Virus record (IMG/VR): IMGVR_UViG_3300031227_000195
Coordinates: 1-35,649 of that record
Length of the DNA stretch: 35,649 nucleotides
Source: a virus
Reading direction: 5' to 3' (one strand)
Shown here: positions 23,266 through 33,994 of the stretch, in pieces
Numbering within the stretch: the stretch's first letter is position 1
How the letters are laid out: the number at the start of each line of letters is the position of its first letter
Notes under the pieces: generated by a model
What the model was told of the DNA's origin: nothing
The model's database searches: none
The model's input: the letters and a program-made list of their open reading frames with translations, nothing else
Made by a program: the position numbers and the translations under genes

Positions 23266-23645
23266 GTGTTCTATACTCCGGGCTTAGGCGACAAGTTGTA
23301 TAGAACACACTTAAACAATTATGATATAAAGAGTTAAGTGAGTATTAGTGGTGTTTACTGTTCTATATGCAAAATGCAATATGGAACACTTAAGTACTGA
23401 TGGTATAGGTGGTTATGACTACTGTTCTATATGTTCTATATAAAAAGCAAGTCAATAGTGTATAGGATATGCTATATATATGAGTATATGCTGTATTGTA
23501 TAGAATATGCGTATATATTTATATGCGTGTAGGGAGCGGTATAGCAAAAGTGTATAGAACATATAGAACAGCTACGGTAAGTTCTTATGGGAGCAGGAGT
23601 TAAGTGTTCTATACAGTATAGAACAAATATGGAACAGTATAGAAC
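23266..23645. repeat. GTTCTATA / TATAGAAC iteron array
   Basis: Ten exact copies: GTTCTATA at 23268, 23360, 23424, 23433 and 23606; TATAGAAC at 23299, 23553, 23562, 23617 and 23638. Variants TATGGAAC at 23380 and 23628, TATAGAAT at 23499. Pairs are 9 bases apart (23424/23433, 23553/23562), or face each other as palindromes (23606-23624, 9-bp arms with one spacer base; 23266-23308, 11-bp arms). Likely binding sites for a replication initiator or regulator. Confidence 0.75.
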
Positions 23646-23751
23646 AGCACAAAATGAACGTGCGTTCCAGGGCTGTTGTCGGTGGAAGTCCCGGACACAC
23701 CAAATAGGACCGTTAACCGCATCACCACATCCCGATTAAGCCAACCAGCGA

Positions 23752-24084: not shown

Positions 24085-24630
24085 TTGAGTTGGTTACAGC
24101 AATTAATCGACTGTCTATTTTCCTTTGTTCCACGAATCTGGCTTGTCAATCCTGACGAGGCCGGCGTGCGTATTACTTTAGGGTCTCGCGTCTATCCCAC
24201 ATCCCCCGGTTGGTACTTCTACTGGCCGTTAATACAGGAGTGCATCAAGTTAACGGTTACAGTGCAGGTTAAAGACCTTAGGGCACAAAGCCTGACCACG
24301 AAGGATGGCAAAAATATAATCATCTCTGGAGCAGTTCAATATAAAATCACAGATGCGGGCAAGGCTTTGCTGAATGTCCAGAATTTTGACGAAACTCTGC
24401 AAATCCTGACGACGGGGAGTATTAGCGATTTTATCAGTGATAAGGATTATGCAGATTGTGAGGATATTACTGCCTTTGAGGATGTTCTACTTCGCAAGAT
24501 ACGGGAGACAGCTTCCGGTTTCGGTTTGAAGATTATGAGAGTGTTCATTACGGATTTTTGCCAGTCTAAAACCTATCGCATTGTGGGGATTATGAACAAT
24601 GAAAACTTGCAGCATGAGGAGAGTCGATGA
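24085..24630 (+). CDS. SPFH/band-7 (stomatin/HflK-like) protein
   Basis: 181 residues from a TTG start after AAAGGATAG. A hydrophobic N-terminus (MSWLQQLIDCLFSFVPRIWL) is followed by VNPDEAGVRITLGSR, SPGWYFYWPLI, SLTTKDGKNIIISGAVQYKI and an Ile/Leu-rich helical end, the order of the SPFH domain of stomatins and HflK/C. Such proteins oligomerise at membranes and regulate proteases. First gene of the rightward block; a membrane-anchored serine protease lies 0.7 kb downstream. It is shorter than bacterial homologues and lacks their long coiled coil. Confidence 0.8.
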   Translation: MSWLQQLIDCLFSFVPRIWLVNPDEAGVRITLGSRVYPTSPGWYFYWPLIQECIKLTVTVQVKDLRAQSLTTKDGKNIIISGAVQYKITDAGKALLNVQNFDETLQILTTGSISDFISDKDYADCEDITAFEDVLLRKIRETASGFGLKIMRVFITDFCQSKTYRIVGIMNNENLQHEESR

Positions 24631-24764
24631 TACCTGATGAGATATTAGAGCAGTTTGCTTATGACGTTGATACTTACGGATGGGACAACATTGATGGTTG
24701 GGACCTTAACGAGGATGGTAATGTGGATATAATTTTAACAGAGGAGTTTCTTAATGGAGAATGA
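24627..24764 (+). CDS. Acidic micro-protein with EF-hand/dockerin-like loop (45 aa)
   Basis: MIPDEILEQFAYDVDTYGWD, then DLNEDGNVDIILTEEF. The D-x-N-x-D-G-x-V-D spacing matches a calcium-binding EF-hand or dockerin loop, although the usual position-12 Glu is shifted by two. ATGA overlap with the SPFH gene; ribosome binding site GAGGAG. Likely translated with it. Confidence 0.5.
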   Translation: MIPDEILEQFAYDVDTYGWDNIDGWDLNEDGNVDIILTEEFLNGE

Positions 24765-24942
24765 CCGAATAGAAGCGAATCGAATATATGATAGTTTCTC
24801 GGCGGAGAAAAGGAACATGAGCAGGAGAAACTTCGTTCAACAGTACCTGGCTTTACTTAGCCCCGCCGGGATACAGAGAGACTTATCGCGGATACAACAG
24901 GGCAGGGAGAACCAGAGGCAGATTGACAGTGCTATTACATAA
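24754..24942 (+). CDS. Small helical protein (62 aa)
   Basis: MENDRIEANRIYDSFSAEKR, then NMSRRNFVQQYLALLSPAGI and REN.QRQIDSA. Charged, helical. Starts inside the EF-hand gene (AGGAGTTTCTTA-ATG). No family recognised. Confidence 0.55.
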   Translation: MENDRIEANRIYDSFSAEKRNMSRRNFVQQYLALLSPAGIQRDLSRIQQGRENQRQIDSAIT

Positions 24943-25018
24943 AGTTTTAGCGATTACCGTAATTATTTACTGTGTATATAGGTTGTATAAAATACTTAGG
25001 AGATTGAGAAATGAATAA
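24929..25018 (+). CDS. Micro-protein, membrane helix with basic tail (29 aa)
   Basis: GTG start: MLLHKVLAITVIIYCVYRLY then KILRRLRNE. One hydrophobic helix followed by a basic tail. The tail codons (AGG AGA TTG AGA AAT GAA) contain the ribosome binding site and ATG of the next gene, the same arrangement as the leftward micro-genes. The ribosome binding site for the GTG is weak. Confidence 0.4.
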   Translation: MLLHKVLAITVIIYCVYRLYKILRRLRNE

Positions 25019-25361
25019 CACATATTCAACTGATAATGTTGGAAATCGTGTTCCACCGCATCCGAACTTATCCGACCCGGTACTGGCAACAGGACAGGAA
25101 TTGACTAATGGAACAGCAGACACTGATACAGAGGCAACAGTAGTAGCTGGTGCTTCCTATGCTCTGACGGCTGTGTTGACAGGTGGTTTCGCTCTTGGTT
25201 TGGCTGATGCTTCTATTGACGCGAATAAGATATGGGCTTGTGCTTTATATCAGACCATCATAATCAAGATTCCAAATGATTATACAGGCACGCTTCATTA
25301 TATTGCCGATACAACAAGTTCGATAGGACGTCTACGAAGGATAGCAATGCCGGGAGACTAA
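25011..25361 (+). CDS. Hypothetical protein, possibly structural (116 aa)
   Basis: MNNTYSTDNVGNRVPPHPNL, then ATVVAGASYALTAVLTGGFA and IIIKIPNDYTGTLHYIADTT. Beta-rich, Gly/Ala/Thr-rich, like small virion proteins. Start from AGGAGATTGAGAA-ATG. No family recognised; it sits between the micro-gene and the protease. Confidence 0.55.
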   Translation: MNNTYSTDNVGNRVPPHPNLSDPVLATGQELTNGTADTDTEATVVAGASYALTAVLTGGFALGLADASIDANKIWACALYQTIIIKIPNDYTGTLHYIADTTSSIGRLRRIAMPGD

Positions 25362-25362
25362 A

Positions 25363-26049
25363 ATGAGAACCAAAATAGCAATATTGTTAATAGCAATTTG
25401 TTTCTGTGTTATTTCTTTTAGAATTTGTCATTTCAATAGAGCTAATTACGTAGCAAGGAAATGTTCACCATCAGTAGCTTATGTAGAGCTTTATGTAAGT
25501 GATTACAAGATAGGTTCAGCCAGTGGGTTCCTGGTAGCAAAAGGCATACTTATGACTGCTGCACATGTTACAGAACATGCCGATAGAATTGATATTTATT
25601 TTGCAGATAGTAATGAGCCATATAGGTCTGTTGATATTATTACTCCAGATTGTAATGATGACCTCGGTTTTGTAATTTTCAATGCCGATGTTAATTGCCC
25701 GGCTACATTGAAATTTGATAATGATATACCTTATCTCGGTATGGATGTGATTACCATTGGTTCACCGCTTGGTAGGGAACAGTTTAACACAATTTCCAAA
25801 GGAATTTTATCTGGTATAGACCGGAATTTTTGGGATTATGGGAATCCAGTATATCAGATTGATGCCCCAACTACTTTCGGCAATAGCGGTTGTCCAGTTT
25901 TTGATGGCGAGGGTGAGGTTATGGGGATGGTTATATCCGGTTATGATAACGGTGATATTTGTTTTTGTGTAACATCAATGACATTGGAGAGAGAGTTTAG
26001 TAAATTTAAAAATGGTCTAAAAAGGGTAGAATCATGGGAGATAAAATAG
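25363..26049 (+). CDS. Membrane-anchored trypsin-like (HtrA-type) serine protease
   Basis: 228 residues. An N-terminal signal/anchor (ILLIAICFCVISF) is followed by a chymotrypsin-fold protease: GSASGFLVAKGILMTAAHV (H68), CNDDLGFVIF (D99/D100) and TFGNSGCPVF (S175 with oxyanion Gly). No PDZ domain. The catalytic triad is complete, so it should be active outside the cytoplasm or at the membrane. Roles could include host envelope modification, exclusion or lysis; phage prohead proteases are usually of other folds. The SPFH gene lies just upstream. Confidence 0.85.
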   Translation: MRTKIAILLIAICFCVISFRICHFNRANYVARKCSPSVAYVELYVSDYKIGSASGFLVAKGILMTAAHVTEHADRIDIYFADSNEPYRSVDIITPDCNDDLGFVIFNADVNCPATLKFDNDIPYLGMDVITIGSPLGREQFNTISKGILSGIDRNFWDYGNPVYQIDAPTTFGNSGCPVFDGEGEVMGMVISGYDNGDICFCVTSMTLEREFSKFKNGLKRVESWEIK

Positions 26050-26225
26050 AAGGTTACGATAAATACGAGATAGAAAATGCTGCGAGAACAATAATTGACG
26101 CAAGGAAAATTATAAACGATAACAAACGCTTTCCCGTAGTTCAAAGAGAATTAATGCGTCAGGCTAAAGCAGCCAAAGAAGCGGCATTAGAGACTAAAGT
26201 TGGTAAGAAATTGAGGGCATTATGA
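26034..26225 (+). CDS. Small basic helical protein (63 aa)
   Basis: MGDKIEGYDKYEIENAARTI, then RKIINDNKRFPVVQRELMRQ and AKAAKEAALETKVGKKLRAL. All helical. Such short genes commonly precede the small terminase in phages. It starts within the last codons of the protease gene. ATGA overlap with the next gene. Confidence 0.6.
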   Translation: MGDKIEGYDKYEIENAARTIIDARKIINDNKRFPVVQRELMRQAKAAKEAALETKVGKKLRAL

Positions 26226-26572
26226 AAAAATCAAAAGGAATAAGTAAATCAGCAGCCGGCCTGATGCTTAGTCGATTTTTACGTAGTATAGCTGAGGAAA
26301 AAACTGAGCTTATTCGTGACCCGGATGGTGGAGACAAAATCTCAACTAAAGCTGAGGCATTAGCACGTTTGATTTGGAAACATGCTCTTGGATATTCAGA
26401 ACTTACAAAAGCAGGTTTAACTGTAACCTATAGACCTGATAAATCAATGATTGCTATGCTGTATAATAGATTAGAAGGTAAAATACCTGATGCCCCGCGT
26501 AATAAGGCTAATACACAGGATGTTGCGGATAAAGTTTCTGAACTTGGTGTTCAGAGAATTAATAATGTTTAA
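26222..26572 (+). CDS. Probable terminase small subunit
   Basis: 116 residues. MKKSKGISKSAAGLMLSRFL, ...DKISTKAEALARLIWKHALG and SMIAMLYNRLEGKIPDAP. The helical pattern ending A-x3-Y-x-R-x-E-G-x-I-P is typical of small terminases and related packaging DNA-binding proteins, and the next gene is the large terminase. Overlaps that gene by eight bases. Call rests mainly on position. Confidence 0.55.
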   Translation: MKKSKGISKSAAGLMLSRFLRSIAEEKTELIRDPDGGDKISTKAEALARLIWKHALGYSELTKAGLTVTYRPDKSMIAMLYNRLEGKIPDAPRNKANTQDVADKVSELGVQRINNV

Positions 26573-28496
26573 TAAGCAAACGATAAATGTCGCTGTAAAA
26601 CCAGAGTTAGCTACTCCATTTCCTAATATACCGGAAAAGTGGAAGGACCCGATAACAGGAATTTACGTACCGAAATTTGTCGGCCCTAATTTGGAATGGC
26701 GTGGAAAACTATTAAAAAAGGCAAGAAATGACCCTATTTTACAAAGAGATTTGATTGCGGCATCAAAAGAATCAATGTTGTTTTGGATTAATACATTTGC
26801 TTTTACCTACCACCAGCATGATATTAATGAAGATGGGCATACTTCGACATGTTTGCGTCCACATTGGCCGTTTATAACCTGGGATGTTCAGGATGATACG
26901 TTTCTTGAGATTAAAAATGCTGTAGAAACGGGATATGATTTAGGTATTAGAAAATCACGGCAAATGGGTGCATCCTGGATGTGTATAACAGCATTTCATT
27001 GGTTCTGGTTATTTGTAAATGAGAGTAAATTACTTGAGATGTCACGTGTTCGAGAATATGTGGACCAACCGGGCAATATGAAAAGTTTGTTTCAGAAACA
27101 TGACTATATTAATAGATTTTTACCAGAGTGGATGAGACCGCCCACTTGTATGCCCGGTGAAAAAGGTCGAACACGCATGCACATGCACAATTCATGTAAT
27201 AATAGTACGATTGATGGCGAATCTACTACTCAACATGCTGGTTCCGGTGATACTCGAAAAGCCATATTGCTTGATGAATTTTCTAAAGTGGAAAACGCGT
27301 CCGCAATGAGGTCAGCTACGGCTGATGTCGCACCTTGTAGAATTGTGAATAGTACCCCAGCAGGTGCTGGTACTGAATATAGTAGATGGATGCGTTCAGG
27401 TAAAATTAAAGTAATAGTTTTGCCGTTTTGGGAACATCCTGAAAAAGGTAGGGGTCGTTATATTAACGAAGTTAAAAAAGGTAAATATGAGATTCGTTCA
27501 CCCTGGTATGATAGGGAAGATGAGCGGCGTACTTCCAAACAAATGGCCCAGGAAGTTCTAATGCAGGATATTCAATCTGGTGATGTGTTCTTTGATATTG
27601 ATTTGCTCGATAATCATAAAGCATTGTTTGGTAAGAAACCCCAGCATAGTTTTAATATCGGAATTAAAAAAACAATATTTGATGAGCAAATTGCGGCCCA
27701 TATAAAGAGTCGAGACCAAGAAGCCTATTATCTAAAACGAGAAAAAGTTAATCCATTAAGAATATGGGTTAAACTTTTTAATAAGAGACCTGACCAAACT
27801 AAGAGTTATGTTTTTGGTATCGACCTTTCTAAAGGTCAAGGGGCTTCTAATTCAGTAATTTCTATTAGATGTAGAGAAACAAATGATAAAATTGCTGAAT
27901 GGGCTGATGCTAATGTACCACCCTATGAAATAGCGAGGACGGTTGTGGCTCTTGCATTATGGTGTGGTGGTAAACCCCCACGCAAATTACCATTTATTAA
28001 ATGGGAAATGAATGGTCCCGGTTGGGATTTTGGTCGTATGATTGTTCAGCGTTATCATTATCCTTATTATTTTCGACAAACAAGTGAAGGAACAGTTAGA
28101 GATAAACAAACTAAAAAATATGGATGGCATAGTGGTAGAGAATCTAAAAAATTATTGCTTGACCAATACCATCGGTTACTTGCTACAGGTAAATTTATTA
28201 ATCATTCGATTGAAGCACTTGATGAAGCAATATTTTATATTTATTTTCCTGATGGTTCAATCGGCCCGGCTTCTTTAACAGAGGAAAACAAAGGAGCTAA
28301 AAAGACACATGGCGATAGAGTTATTGCTGATGCCCTGTGTGCTGAGGATTGTATAGTTAAACCATCTGAAAAAACGCTGATATATTCTGCGGATTCAGTT
28401 GGTCAGCGTAAAATAAATTATCTCGCCAAAAAGAAGCGAGCAAAAAGCCAACAGACAAGTTGGAAAAGACCATTTAATTTTATTGGGATGAATTGA
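26565..28496 (+). CDS. Terminase large subunit
   Basis: 643 residues from the ATG at 26565 (a longer in-frame start at 26490 only duplicates the previous gene). Walker A variant GIRKSRQMGASW (about 128-138), Walker B KAILLDEF (D237, E238), and RNase H-like nuclease motifs VFGIDLSKGQG (D420), KWEMNGPG and GDRVIADAL. It drives DNA packaging into proheads and cuts the concatemer. Stop and portal start overlap (TGATG). Confidence 0.92.
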   Translation: MFNKQTINVAVKPELATPFPNIPEKWKDPITGIYVPKFVGPNLEWRGKLLKKARNDPILQRDLIAASKESMLFWINTFAFTYHQHDINEDGHTSTCLRPHWPFITWDVQDDTFLEIKNAVETGYDLGIRKSRQMGASWMCITAFHWFWLFVNESKLLEMSRVREYVDQPGNMKSLFQKHDYINRFLPEWMRPPTCMPGEKGRTRMHMHNSCNNSTIDGESTTQHAGSGDTRKAILLDEFSKVENASAMRSATADVAPCRIVNSTPAGAGTEYSRWMRSGKIKVIVLPFWEHPEKGRGRYINEVKKGKYEIRSPWYDREDERRTSKQMAQEVLMQDIQSGDVFFDIDLLDNHKALFGKKPQHSFNIGIKKTIFDEQIAAHIKSRDQEAYYLKREKVNPLRIWVKLFNKRPDQTKSYVFGIDLSKGQGASNSVISIRCRETNDKIAEWADANVPPYEIARTVVALALWCGGKPPRKLPFIKWEMNGPGWDFGRMIVQRYHYPYYFRQTSEGTVRDKQTKKYGWHSGRESKKLLLDQYHRLLATGKFINHSIEALDEAIFYIYFPDGSIGPASLTEENKGAKKTHGDRVIADALCAEDCIVKPSEKTLIYSADSVGQRKINYLAKKKRAKSQQTSWKRPFNFIGMN

Positions 28497-30250
28497 TGGA
28501 TATTACTCCACAAAAAATTCAAAATGTAGTTAAAGACGGCTTTGATAGACTTAAACGGTATCGTGCGGCAAGGGCATTATTTCTAAAAGAATATGTAGGT
28601 AGATACTATCAACGTGATGCTGGTATGACTGGAGATGAACCTATAAATCTTTTGTTTCATGCAGTTAGGACACTTGTACCTAATATTGTAATGAAAGAAC
28701 CGTTTAATGAAATATCTACTGAGATAGTTTCACAGCGACCGTATGCTGAATTACTGAGTATGGGTATTAACAAAATCCAACATGATTTGGAAATAAAGGA
28801 TAAACTTCGAGCATGGATTGTTGATGCTATATTTGCAATGGGAATTATGAAAGTAGGTTTGTGTGGTTCTAATACGACCATTGAATATGGTGATAACAGA
28901 ATCGACCCAGGTGAAATTTATATAGAAACAGTTGATTTGGATAATTTTGTTTTCGACCCAACTTGTACTGATATTGATAAGAGTAATTTTATCGGTGATA
29001 GAATTACAATTCCTCGACAAGTTTTACTTGAATCTGGTATTTATAACAAAGAATTAGTTATGCGACTTCCATCAATTTCACAAATAGTCGATACTAATGA
29101 AGCCAAAAATATTTCGAGAAAAAATGCGGGTTCTAATCAATTTAATAACTTACAGGATATGGTGCATGTAGTTTCACTATATATACCCAAAGCAAATGCG
29201 TTGGTTACTATTCCTGACCCCCGCGAAACAGTATTTAGTGATTATCTGGCAGTTCAAGATTATTATGGTCCTGATACTGGACCTTATCATATTTTATCAT
29301 TAACACCTAAAGTACCTAATAATCCTTATCCGGTTGCCCCGGTTAGTATTTGGTATGACCTTCATCTTATGGCAAATCAGATGTTTACAAAATCAATGGA
29401 ACAAGCATCTCGTCAAAAAGATGTCGCCATATGTGACCCATCAGCTATTGATGAAGGAAATACACTTCGAGAGGCTTCGGATGGTGATATGGTTTGGGGT
29501 AATCCTGATTCAGTTAAAGTCATAAGTTACGGTGGACAGAACCGCGATAACGCTGCTATGATTCAACAGCTTCATACCTGGTTCAATTATATAGCTGGAA
29601 ACCCTGACCAGTTGGCCGGATTGAGTTCAGATGCTGATACTGCCACCCAATCTGCAATTCTTGAATCCAATTCACGTGTGAGTATTAGAGATATTCAAGG
29701 TATTACACGTGATAGAGCGGCTGATATAGCCCGTGATATAGCGTGGTACTTACATACTGACCCATTAATAGACATACCATTGGCAAAACGCAAACCAGGT
29801 GGTGAATTTATCCAAATGAGATTAACACCTGAACAACGTCGAGGTGATTTTTTAGATTATACATTTAGAATTAAAGCTAAATCAATGACTCGAATGGACC
29901 CGATATTACGGTCCAAACGCATAGTTGATTTTGCTACAAATATTATTCCTCGTCTGACCCAGGCAGCACAAATGGCAATGATGATGGGAGTACCATTTAA
30001 TTTGCCAAGAGCTATAACAAGAATAGCAGATGAATTAGATATAACCGAACCTGTAGAGGATTGGTTTGATGACCCGGAATTTATGCAAAGACTACAGTTA
30101 CGAATGGCTATGGGTCCGCAACCAGCAGGTAAAGCATCTCCGCAACAGGAAAAAGGTTTTTCTTCAACGAGAAAACCGAGAGATGAAACTAAACAACAGC
30201 AACAGGAAATACCAGCAGAGAATCAGAGTGCAATGAAAGGATTGTATTAA
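28496..30250 (+). CDS. Portal protein
   Basis: 584 residues from the ATG at 28496 (the TTG at 28493 is less likely). Contains MMDITP..., a central PVSIWYDLHLMANQMFTKSM, GGQNRDNAAMIQQLHTWFNY, GNPDQLAGLSSDADTATQSA and SKRIVDFATNIIPRL, characteristic of podovirus-like portals, plus a Gln-rich C-terminus. Directly follows the large terminase. Forms the vertex channel for DNA. Confidence 0.8.
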   Translation: MDITPQKIQNVVKDGFDRLKRYRAARALFLKEYVGRYYQRDAGMTGDEPINLLFHAVRTLVPNIVMKEPFNEISTEIVSQRPYAELLSMGINKIQHDLEIKDKLRAWIVDAIFAMGIMKVGLCGSNTTIEYGDNRIDPGEIYIETVDLDNFVFDPTCTDIDKSNFIGDRITIPRQVLLESGIYNKELVMRLPSISQIVDTNEAKNISRKNAGSNQFNNLQDMVHVVSLYIPKANALVTIPDPRETVFSDYLAVQDYYGPDTGPYHILSLTPKVPNNPYPVAPVSIWYDLHLMANQMFTKSMEQASRQKDVAICDPSAIDEGNTLREASDGDMVWGNPDSVKVISYGGQNRDNAAMIQQLHTWFNYIAGNPDQLAGLSSDADTATQSAILESNSRVSIRDIQGITRDRAADIARDIAWYLHTDPLIDIPLAKRKPGGEFIQMRLTPEQRRGDFLDYTFRIKAKSMTRMDPILRSKRIVDFATNIIPRLTQAAQMAMMMGVPFNLPRAITRIADELDITEPVEDWFDDPEFMQRLQLRMAMGPQPAGKASPQQEKGFSSTRKPRDETKQQQQEIPAENQSAMKGLY

Positions 30251-30850: not shown

Positions 30851-32032
30851 ATGGCAGAGAAAAAGACAGAATTAGAACAGGACGTTTCACAGATTAAGAC
30901 GGATGAAGGAACAGAACAGGATACGGCGATTGTCGATGCGAAGGCGGATGAAATCGCAGAGAAGGAAGCAATAGTTCTTTCTGATAAAGAACTTGAGAAA
31001 ACAGTTGCAAAAAATTTAGAAAAGACTTTTGGCGAAGAAGATGATTCTACTCCTAAATTGGATGAATCTACCTCTGAATTGGATGAGTCTACCTCTGAAC
31101 AGGTAAAGAAACCTGAACAGGTGAAAAAACCTGAACAGGCAACTGAGGAACCTGAACAGACAGAGGAATCCGAACAGACAGAAAAATCCAAAGAATCTGA
31201 AAGCGAAGGTAAAAAATCAGAACTGCCCGATGCCTATTATCGAGCGGCAGTTCACCAGGGATGGAAACCGGAAGATGTTAAGGAGTTTTTTGATGCTGAC
31301 CCTGATAAAGCAACAAGGACATTTCAGAATATTTACAATAGTACCAATCGGTTATCTAAAGAATTTGCTCAACTTGGTAGAACTGTTAAAGAACAGGCAG
31401 AACAGAAACAACAGGCAGAACAGAATCAACAGAGTACCGATACAGGATTTGCTGGTGTAGATATTCAGAAACTAAAGACTGAATATCCAGATGACCCGTT
31501 AATAGATACGGTTATTGCCCCGCTTAATGCAGCATTGATTAAGATGGACAAAAGGGTGTCTGAACAGATTCAGTCGCAGGTTCAGCAACAGTCGCAATCA
31601 CAGCAACAGAATACGAACACACAGATGGAACGTACCATCATGAAGTTTTTTGATGATGGTGAGTTGGACAATTATTCCACTATTTATGGTAAATTGGAAA
31701 AAGAGCAAACTTGGGATGATTTGACAATTCGTCAGCAACAAAAACGATGGGATGTTCTTAATATGGCTGACCAGATTATCAATGGTGCGACTGTACAAGG
31801 TAAAACAATGGAAGTTGGAGAAGCCCTTAATCTTTCACATTTAATTACCACAGAGGATGTTCGCGAACAAGCTGTTAGAAAAGATATTATGAAAAAGGTT
31901 GTAAAAAAGAGTAAGAGTCTTACCCTTAAACCTAATAATGATACCAGTGTGACTGCCCAAACAGGTGGTAAACCATCTAACACTGACCTTGAAAAACGAA
32001 CATCGCAAAGATTAACCAAAGTTTTTGGATAA
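30851..32032 (+). CDS. Scaffold-like acidic protein
   Basis: 393 residues. The first 125 residues are acidic and repetitive (LDESTSELDESTSEQ, then KKPEQVKKPEQ and EPEQTEESEQTEKS). Then ELPDAYYRAAVHQGWKPEDV, a Gln-rich coiled region (QAEQKQQAEQNQQ, SQVQQQSQSQQQNTN) and a basic C-terminus. Composition, length and position immediately before the capsid gene fit a scaffolding protein. Confidence 0.7.
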   Translation: MAEKKTELEQDVSQIKTDEGTEQDTAIVDAKADEIAEKEAIVLSDKELEKTVAKNLEKTFGEEDDSTPKLDESTSELDESTSEQVKKPEQVKKPEQATEEPEQTEESEQTEKSKESESEGKKSELPDAYYRAAVHQGWKPEDVKEFFDADPDKATRTFQNIYNSTNRLSKEFAQLGRTVKEQAEQKQQAEQNQQSTDTGFAGVDIQKLKTEYPDDPLIDTVIAPLNAALIKMDKRVSEQIQSQVQQQSQSQQQNTNTQMERTIMKFFDDGELDNYSTIYGKLEKEQTWDDLTIRQQQKRWDVLNMADQIINGATVQGKTMEVGEALNLSHLITTEDVREQAVRKDIMKKVVKKSKSLTLKPNNDTSVTAQTGGKPSNTDLEKRTSQRLTKVFG

Positions 32033-32052: not shown

Positions 32053-33159
32053 ATGGGTGTTAAAAACGCTGCCCTTGCTGATTTAATTTCGACTACTCTT
32101 GAAGATTTACCAGAACAGTATTTTGAAGTTACCTGGGACCATCCTGATTATGAGTTTTGTCGTATTTACCAGCAAGAACGATTGGAAGTTGATGGCGGAA
32201 CCAGTATTAAGCGTAAACTAATGCTTGATGATTCTGGTAATGCTAAGTATCGTAGACTTTATGACGTCGATACTCCTACTGTCGGCGAGGTAATGAAAAC
32301 TATTGATGTGCCCTGGACACAAATTGGTACTAATTATTCCTGGGATAAATTGGAAATCCTGCGTAATAGAAGTGACGCCAAAGGTTTTATCAAACTGATG
32401 ACGGTCAGACGTATTGATGGTCTGTGGTCACTTGCTAATCTAATTGAAGAAAGAGCCTGGAAAACACCATCAGATTCTGCTGATGACCTTTATCCTTATG
32501 GCGTTCCATATTATCTTAATGCGATTGACGCAGATAGTTCGGATACAGCCGGATTTGTTGGTCAGACGATTAGATTCCAAGATGGTAATACTTCCAAAGT
32601 TTGTGCTGGTCTTGATGCTGAGGCGAATCCACGTTGGAAAAATTATGCTGCTACTTACAGTGCAGTTGATAATGCTTTACTAACGACTTTCCGCATAGCA
32701 TTTATGAAAACAAAGTTCAAAGCTCCGCTTATAGTCAATGACCCAGCACAAAAGAATCAAGGGGCCAAACGAATTTACACTAATGCCAAAATTAGTGCTG
32801 CATTGATGGATTTGGCTGACCAGCGTGATGACAGACACGTTGGTAAAGATGTACTCGGTAATCTTCGTGTTGATGATGGTGGTCTTTGTTCCATAAATAG
32901 ACTACCTGTTGTTTACATTGACCAGCTTGATGACGTCACTGACCCCGAAACCGGGGACGAGATGGACCCGATTTATTGCATAGATTTTCGTAAGTTTATT
33001 CCTGTGGTTCAAACAGATTACTGGATGGTCGAAGGCGAACCTATGACTGACAGAACACAGCATACGACTTTCACAGTTTATCTGGATGGTTCACATAACA
33101 ATCTGTGTACTAATCGAAGAACGGCTGGTTTTGTAATGCACAAGGCATTAACCGCTTAA
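32053..33159 (+). CDS. Probable major capsid protein
   Basis: 368 residues. MGVKNAALADLISTTLEDLP, ...VGEVMKTIDVPWTQIGTNYS, ...SWDKLEILRNRSDAKGFIKL and a C-terminal VDIQTDYWMVEGE-like end. Follows the scaffold-like gene with a strong ribosome binding site (AAGGAGAATTTAAA). The order and size suggest the HK97-fold capsid, but I see no unambiguous motif. Confidence 0.7.
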   Translation: MGVKNAALADLISTTLEDLPEQYFEVTWDHPDYEFCRIYQQERLEVDGGTSIKRKLMLDDSGNAKYRRLYDVDTPTVGEVMKTIDVPWTQIGTNYSWDKLEILRNRSDAKGFIKLMTVRRIDGLWSLANLIEERAWKTPSDSADDLYPYGVPYYLNAIDADSSDTAGFVGQTIRFQDGNTSKVCAGLDAEANPRWKNYAATYSAVDNALLTTFRIAFMKTKFKAPLIVNDPAQKNQGAKRIYTNAKISAALMDLADQRDDRHVGKDVLGNLRVDDGGLCSINRLPVVYIDQLDDVTDPETGDEMDPIYCIDFRKFIPVVQTDYWMVEGEPMTDRTQHTTFTVYLDGSHNNLCTNRRTAGFVMHKALTA

Positions 33160-33190: not shown

Positions 33191-33994
33191 ATGGCAAAAG
33201 GAAAAGCTAAGACCAATTACCTTCACCGAGAAGGCGTAGTTGGTCATGATGTTGCTCCTGACTATGGATTTCTTTACCAGACTTCTTTAGTCAAAGACCC
33301 GAAATGGAATATCGGTGATAGAGTAGTGCTTGGTGATGGTCGTGAATTTAAATATGGGAAATCTTATAACGCTTTATCTGCTACACGTGGTTGTGAGATT
33401 TTTGTGCTTGGAGTTAACAGTTATTCTGTGTTAGGGGCCACAACTGCTAAAGGTGGAAAAACTCTTTCAGTGGCTGCTGTAGCACATGATGTATTAGCCG
33501 AAGATGAGTTGCGTGGTGGATATGCTTTGATTTATGGTTCAGATGGTGATGATACCGATACTCAATTTAGGGGTATTATTGGTAATGACGTTTCTGCTGA
33601 TGCTGCTGCTTTTAAAATTTATCTGGATGCAGGATTAGTTAAAGAAGTAACAGTAGCTAATTATTGTGAAATATTTCAGAACCCATTTGCGGCGTTGCGT
33701 TTATCTACAACGACAGTGGAGGATTTTCCAAAAGCAGGTGTTCCTGCTGTAGAAGTTAGTGCAGGTGACATGTATTTTTGGTTCCAATTTAGAGGTCCAA
33801 TTTGGCTTCCCCCGCAAGCTGGACTTATTGATGAACAAATTGGTGCTATGTGGAGACATGATGGTAGTCTTGGTGATATAAGTACAACACTATCTGCTAC
33901 TGCATGTATTGCCGAAGCTATGACACAATATGCTGGTCATAGACTTATAGGTGATAGGGATGGTAACGGCCCACTGTTTAATTTACAGGGTTAA
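33191..33994 (+). CDS. Head-associated protein, possibly decoration (267 aa)
   Basis: MAKGKAKTNYLHREGVVGHD, ...GDRVVLGDGREFKYGKSYNA, ...FGLIRPPQAGLIDEQ-like WLPPQAGLIDEQIGAMWRHD. Beta-rich and Gly/Ala-rich. Follows the capsid gene with ribosome binding site AAAAGGAGAAATTAAA. Probably capsid decoration or a second head protein; the name is by position. Confidence 0.55.
   Translation: MAKGKAKTNYLHREGVVGHDVAPDYGFLYQTSLVKDPKWNIGDRVVLGDGREFKYGKSYNALSATRGCEIFVLGVNSYSVLGATTAKGGKTLSVAAVAHDVLAEDELRGGYALIYGSDGDDTDTQFRGIIGNDVSADAAAFKIYLDAGLVKEVTVANYCEIFQNPFAALRLSTTTVEDFPKAGVPAVEVSAGDMYFWFQFRGPIWLPPQAGLIDEQIGAMWRHDGSLGDISTTLSATACIAEAMTQYAGHRLIGDRDGNGPLFNLQG

Follow-up and report, generated by a model that had tools for sequence, protein, structure and literature searches.

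A partly conserved pre-terminase block encoding a probably exported HtrA-type serine protease and an optional SPFH protein in a phage lineage

An accessory block in the late operon, located before the terminase genes, usually encodes an HtrA/DegS-type serine protease and optionally an SPFH (Band 7) protein in the uncultured lineage of tailed phages described here, and we tentatively favour the reading, with confidence falling a little short of even, that this block acts on the host envelope. The window, that is, the whole stretch of DNA that was analysed, is a single IMG/VR virus record of 35,649 bases. On the basis of gene calls and of the Pfam and PHROG matches in the window, the genes on the + strand from position 24085 onwards constitute a late operon, in the order SPFH, 45-aa acidic peptide, p62, p116, protease, 63-aa gene, small terminase, large terminase, portal, scaffold-like protein and capsid (Table 1). 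A preliminary description had combined the SPFH protein, an EF-hand-like peptide, a one-helix membrane peptide and a trypsin-like protease into a single module, possibly forming a membrane-bound protease device. All four are located where they had been described, and two genes of the interval 24085-26049 which had not been listed, p62 and p116, are its conserved genes in relatives. The late, putatively envelope-acting protease block with an optional SPFH protein is real and conserved in part, and the four-gene device under SPFH control is partly supported.

Table 1. Features of the window in and ahead of the late operon (locus counts refer to the 86 loci defined in the text)
Feature	Coordinates	Strand	Basis
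Array, 10 copies of TGTTCTATA / TATAGAACA	23267..23646	.	intergenic, ahead of late operon
SPFH (Band 7) protein, single domain, without C-terminal coiled coil	24085..24630	+	PF01145 3.7e-23
45-aa acidic peptide, half EF-hand-like loop	24627..24764	+	sequence; without Pfam or PHROG match
p62, small conserved block protein	24754..24942	+	homologues in 40/86 loci after iteration
Candidate 31-aa one-helix membrane peptide	24923..25018	+	hydropathy 1.94 over 19 residues
p116, all-beta (jelly-roll / double-stranded beta-helix-like)	25011..25361	+	homologues in 38/86 loci; model pLDDT 92.5
Membrane-anchored HtrA/DegS-like serine protease without PDZ	25363..26049	+	PF13365 2.3e-19; HTRA2 2.8e-11
Probable small terminase subunit	26222..26572	+	position and conservation: homologues in 72/86 loci directly upstream of TerL
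Large terminase subunit	26565..28496	+	phrog_2 6.5e-11; ORF open from 26490
Portal protein, SU10-like	28493..30250	+	PF23899 1.8e-9
Major capsid protein; query for collecting the lineage	32053..33159	+	phrog_9953 0.003

The candidate small terminase received no name in a Pfam scan, and the large terminase (TerL) probably starts at 26565 rather than 26490, since its homologues align only from residue 36 onwards. Ahead of the operon, TGTTCTATA occurs in ten exact copies in both orientations, all inside 380 bp, against 0.49 expected in the whole window, and 0 of 100 shuffles reach ten copies; the array represents possible operator sites or replication iterons.

The lineage of the window was reached by searches with TerL and the capsid protein, and not with the SPFH protein, for which searches of viral contigs led to other phage groups. 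Five closer relatives were recovered with TerL, all with the protease, which is encoded by the ORF directly before the small terminase in four and by a contig-edge fragment in L019. The capsid search returned 123 relatives, of which 80 were kept (capsid identity 59-78%), and 86 loci were analysed, L017-L021 and the window included. One further relative, L109 (VRUG01000020.1; 47,236 bp), was found among genome contigs, and the binning of this contig in a Planctomycetota MAG is the sole host hint for the lineage. Neither the SPFH protein of the window nor its capsid protein was matched in the phage collection, which thus yielded no isolate of the lineage. With own-seed models, TerL was identified in 75 of the 86 loci, the protease in 47 and the SPFH protein in 16. 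TerL identity to the window ranges from 47 to 71% (median 53), and over this range the order (SPFH) - p62 - p116 - protease - small terminase - large terminase - portal - scaffold - capsid recurs. The longest records of the lineage span 48-51 kb; those of at least 40 kb (22, all such among the kept loci) were picked by length only. In L021 (3480-5027) the portal gene is broken into three ORFs, by a frameshift or an assembly error.

The protease (228 aa) carries a trypsin-fold Trypsin_2 domain ending at about residue 212, and its nearest solved proteins are HTRA2, HTRA1, DegP and DegS. The full His-Asp-Ser triad and the membrane anchor of the preliminary description both held. H68, D100 and S175 show no substitution across the 47 homologue rows of the alignment (gaps in incomplete rows: H 5, D 3, S 0), and a hydrophobic N-terminal segment is found in all 40 complete copies, with hydropathy above 1.6 over 19 residues in 35/35 aligned copies. 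A lipobox-like motif, scored with our own pattern, ends the anchor instead of a plain helix in six of the 40 (L071, L073, L103, L041, L042 and L043), suggesting a second kind of outer-face anchor. Pfam matched no PDZ domain in the protein, and no PDZ segment is left in the 228 aa; DegS is constitutively active when it lacks its PDZ domain. Judged from its sequence, the enzyme looks catalytically intact and membrane-tethered, and is probably exported.

Among the 75 loci with TerL, 47 encode the protease, in 45 of these with a start within 2.5 kb upstream of TerL; where at least 2.5 kb is available upstream of TerL, it is present in 35 of 52 loci. Its presence in 15 of the 22 records of at least 40 kb, and absence from the other seven, indicates that it is not essential. 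Distances among protease copies track those of TerL (Mantel r 0.50, n=40, p 0.0005), as do distances among SPFH copies (Mantel r 0.70, n=16, p 0.0005), suggesting that both genes are long-term residents of the lineage. The protease has diverged faster than TerL (mean divergence 0.72 vs 0.42), and fast divergence is frequent among host-facing proteins. That it is a prohead maturation enzyme is very improbable: Pfam recognised no other protease in the scaffold-like protein (30851-32032) or in 33191-33994, as this role might lead one to expect, but the membrane anchor is conserved in every complete copy, seven long records lack the gene altogether, and conservation of the capsid protein begins at residue 1, with no sign of a removable N-terminal part.

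The reading we favour is that the usual component of the block would be an HtrA/DegS-type protease that has lost its PDZ regulatory domain, is made together with the packaging genes, and is exported by the Sec route and tethered to the inner membrane. Given its operon it would be produced late in infection, when it most likely cuts host envelope proteins, and this cutting may ease exit, exclude a second phage, or both. The optional second component, the SPFH protein, would sit at the cytoplasmic face of the inner membrane. Its likeliest task there is to organise a membrane patch or to join SPFH rings of the host, and contact with the protease domain is less likely.

The closest neighbour of the protease is p116, not the SPFH protein. 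Homologues of p116 were detected with own-seed models, as were those of p62, for which 20 of the 86 loci were positive before iteration. In 23 of the 28 loci encoding both, p116 ends no more than 17 bp from the protease start or overlaps it. This tight association fits a role in the handling of virion-surface proteins and counts against the envelope reading. The protease could thus be an assembly or quality-control enzyme that processes surface proteins of the phage itself (p116 and the block's variable fibre- or lectin-like proteins), a reading we consider rather unlikely, even with a Laminin_G_3 protein (L020), fibre-like ORFs (L050 and L062) and a GroES-like Cpn10 gene (12 loci) in the same interval. 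Against it, p116 has no visible signal sequence and the protease is anchored for export, so that the two would share a compartment only at lysis, and some loci encode p116 but no protease. The predicted p116 structure is confident and all-beta; it has 12 BFVD matches at E<=0.001, the named ones being uncharacterised phage proteins, and no PDB match at E<=0.001 (best VIA Z 8.0). As the fold search yields only common beta-sandwich folds, no function can be named from it.

Other genes are observed at this position in parts of the lineage. Cpn10 genes lie in the pre-terminase block of L036 (1160-1429), L039 (2025-2321), L034 (2364-2693), L045 (2347-2667) and eight further loci, and three of the four tested score above the Pfam cut-off. 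The fibre-like ORFs of L050 and L062 code for 919 and 1016 aa and have no Pfam match. In L058 (3660-3881), L072 (2901-3155), L109 (3155-3454) and L076 (3356-3523), which lack the protease, a short ORF resembling a membrane protein or lipoprotein occupies its position ahead of the small terminase. HExxH SprT-like proteins are encoded in L058 (98-484), L061 (1972-2328), L072 (605-976) and L104 (1524-1928), all without the trypsin-like protease. A swap of one enzyme for the other was considered and rejected as weak: the SprT-like gene is found in four of 49 records, all of them lacking the protease (p 0.023), and two of the four belong to the same TerL cluster.

The SPFH protein of the window (181 aa) starts at a TTG codon, and its initial MSWL is seen again in L002. 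It scores 82.9 bits with PF01145 (cut-off 23.6), and stomatin is its best PDB match by sequence (4.6e-8). Its model (pLDDT 91.4) has human stomatin as best fold match (E 1.5e-13) and also matches QmcA in QmcA-YbbJ (4.0e-9). In typical SPFH proteins a C-terminal coiled coil forms the cage wall. This coiled coil is absent here, the model showing only a 7-residue helix past the domain, and the 23 aligned copies, at 161-195 aa, each consist of a single domain and end just past it. The N-terminus is amphipathic, and a hydropathy of 1.6 over 19 residues is reached by three of the 23 copies; as so few N-termini are hydrophobic enough for a spanning helix, we consider export less likely than monotopic attachment at the cytoplasmic face.

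Both SPFH and protease genes are present in 14 of the 86 loci with own-seed models, and additionally in the record of L054 by Pfam coordinates. In 13 of the 14 the SPFH gene lies 353-2244 bp upstream of the protease gene, with p116 between them in ten; in L045 the protease comes first and the SPFH gene adjoins it. The SPFH gene is missing from 14 of the 22 records of at least 40 kb, and is thus optional, yet fixed in place. In these 22 records the two genes show no excess of co-occurrence over independence: both are present in six, SPFH alone in two, protease alone in nine and neither in five (Fisher p = 1.0). Counted once per TerL cluster, with a minimum of 3.5 kb upstream, the loci give 11, 1, 11 and 11 (p 0.024); here L076, which has SPFH without protease, is represented by L061. 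A table of 49 records gives 14, 3, 15 and 17 (p 0.031), and is enriched for SPFH because short records already known to hold it were included; all of these p values ignore shared ancestry. The pairing had at one stage been judged unsupported, as none of the first seven records with SPFH relatives encodes a Trypsin_2 protease; this was reversed, those records representing other phage groups. The place of the SPFH and protease genes is conserved; a partnership between the two is at most putative.

These data bear on a true SPFH-controlled protease complex, in which an SPFH ring would gather or gate the protease as a phage counterpart of stomatin-NfeD or HflKC-FtsH. The 14 loci with both genes, 13 with SPFH upstream and one with the genes adjacent, the excess in the TerL-cluster table, uncorrected for shared ancestry, and the pairing of cellular SPFH genes with NfeD or ClpP-type protease genes described in the part of PMC2636767 available to us all point in this direction. 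The lack of an excess in the long records and the likely location of the two proteins on opposite membrane faces speak against it, and we regard it as improbable. Direct contact is doubtful, since of the two only the protease looks exported. Of the SPFH-controlled protease device previously suggested, there thus remains a late block shared by the two genes, which distant relatives keep at one position ahead of the terminase; each gene also occurs on its own, the protease without SPFH in 9/22 and SPFH without the protease in 2/22 of the long records, and direct control is doubtful. An equally low probability attaches to a more elaborate membrane proteolysis platform, in which an SPFH ring and a DegS-like protease, perhaps constitutively active for want of a PDZ domain, would be expressed late with p116 and cut host envelope or signalling proteins.

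In other phage groups the SPFH gene is flanked by the TerL and portal genes, with its start and the TerL stop overlapping and no protease alongside, in L002, L003, L004 and L010, and is found one gene upstream of TerL in L006 and L007. This arrangement would suit an SPFH protein serving head assembly or packaging at the membrane independently of the protease. However, the SPFH gene is away from TerL in L005, L008, L011 and L012, and the 14 long lineage records without it argue in the same direction, so that this role too appears unlikely. No Trypsin_2 protease was found in the first seven of these records, nor in L010 or L012; the record of L011 encodes one (241 aa; 27% identity over 179 residues, 2e-8), about 13 kb from the SPFH gene and away from the terminase.

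The two small peptides fared less well as members of a four-gene module. The start of the 45-aa peptide overlaps the SPFH stop (ATGA) and is preceded by a good ribosome site, suggesting that it is probably a gene. Its EF-hand-like loop DLNEDGNVDIIL retains the D-x-N-x-D-G half, and it is the sole ORF preceded by a Shine-Dalgarno (SD) sequence with this motif among the 426 ORFs of 20-60 aa in the window; position 12 of the 12-residue loop, where an EF-hand has an acidic residue, is Leu and not Glu, and no Pfam or PHROG family was matched. Of the 86 loci, only the window encodes it. The one-helix ORF, which would code for 29 aa from an internal GTG start, is plausible as a gene on weak evidence, being one of six short ORFs with both an SD sequence and a transmembrane (TM) segment among the same 426. 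Such a peptide was not seen in the SPFH-protease interval of the other 13 loci that encode both proteins; an ORF inside p116 of L036 was dismissed as a spurious counterpart. The expected co-occurrence in relatives therefore extends to SPFH and protease and to neither peptide.

Should the envelope reading hold, the protease, with its constant position directly ahead of the terminase, would represent an uncharacterised means by which phages act on the host envelope during late infection. The role of phage SPFH proteins, so far unassigned, would gain a candidate partner and place in a membrane-tethered, probably exported HtrA-type protease. The membrane proteolysis platform, if true, would parallel the stomatin-NfeD and HflKC-FtsH partnerships in a virus, with another protease fold. 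No description of an SPFH-protease block in phages, or of SPFH genes adjoining packaging genes, was found in the open-access literature, which is no proof of absence. Phage SPFH proteins of unassigned function, sharing the SPFH domain with the window protein (as does phrog_200), are reported as Kayvirus MbpS, the Schitoviridae GIB1 lipoprotein, in KPP10-like phages and as AH14b p02 (PMC7150955, PMC13239085, PMC8540360, PMC4936722), with a further mention in PMC13384950; the passages available from these five sources suggest roles in lysogeny control, adsorption or entry, and membrane microdomains. Unlike the window SPFH gene, that of MbpS is described near lysin genes and not packaging genes, and the portions of these descriptions at hand name no protease partner.

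No protease relative was found in viral contigs by single-sequence search, and among the fetched regions of the phage collection only rhizobial phages gave convincing matches. Phages 16-3 (p036, COG0265-type), RHph_X2_25, NV1.1.1 and AP-16-3 encode trypsin-like proteases 29-33% identical to the L055 homologue, with accessory or hypothetical genes as neighbours, and not packaging genes, in the three regions inspected for the four phages, suggesting that the linkage of protease and terminase is not general. A further phage trypsin-like family is phrog_9683. L014, L015, L016 and L113 were rejected as phage loci, their DNA resembling bacterial chromosome or host-type DNA; L015, L016 and L113, filed as phage, contain bacterial chromosome-type genes, e.g. 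degQ, lepA, nadB and ccm genes.

Like DegS and other HtrA proteins, the phage protease consists of one membrane anchor and, after it, a catalytic domain of HtrA type; it differs in lacking PDZ, in being viral and in its fixed place before the terminase genes. In the stomatin-NfeD systems (STOPP; Pyrococcus horikoshii PH1510/PH1511, QmcA-YbbJ), an SPFH gene and a membrane-bound protease or NfeD gene share one operon, according to the accessible parts of PMC2636767, covering NfeD and ClpP-type serine protease genes in bacteria and archaea, and of PMC3795559; the word 'phage' occurs 0 times in the former, as far as its text was available. The phage SPFH protein likewise folds like stomatin and QmcA. 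Its potential partner, however, is of the trypsin/HtrA fold and not ClpP-type, Pfam matching no ClpP or NfeD among the window genes scanned; p116 and p62 usually intervene, the phage SPFH protein has no coiled coil, and the pairing is optional.
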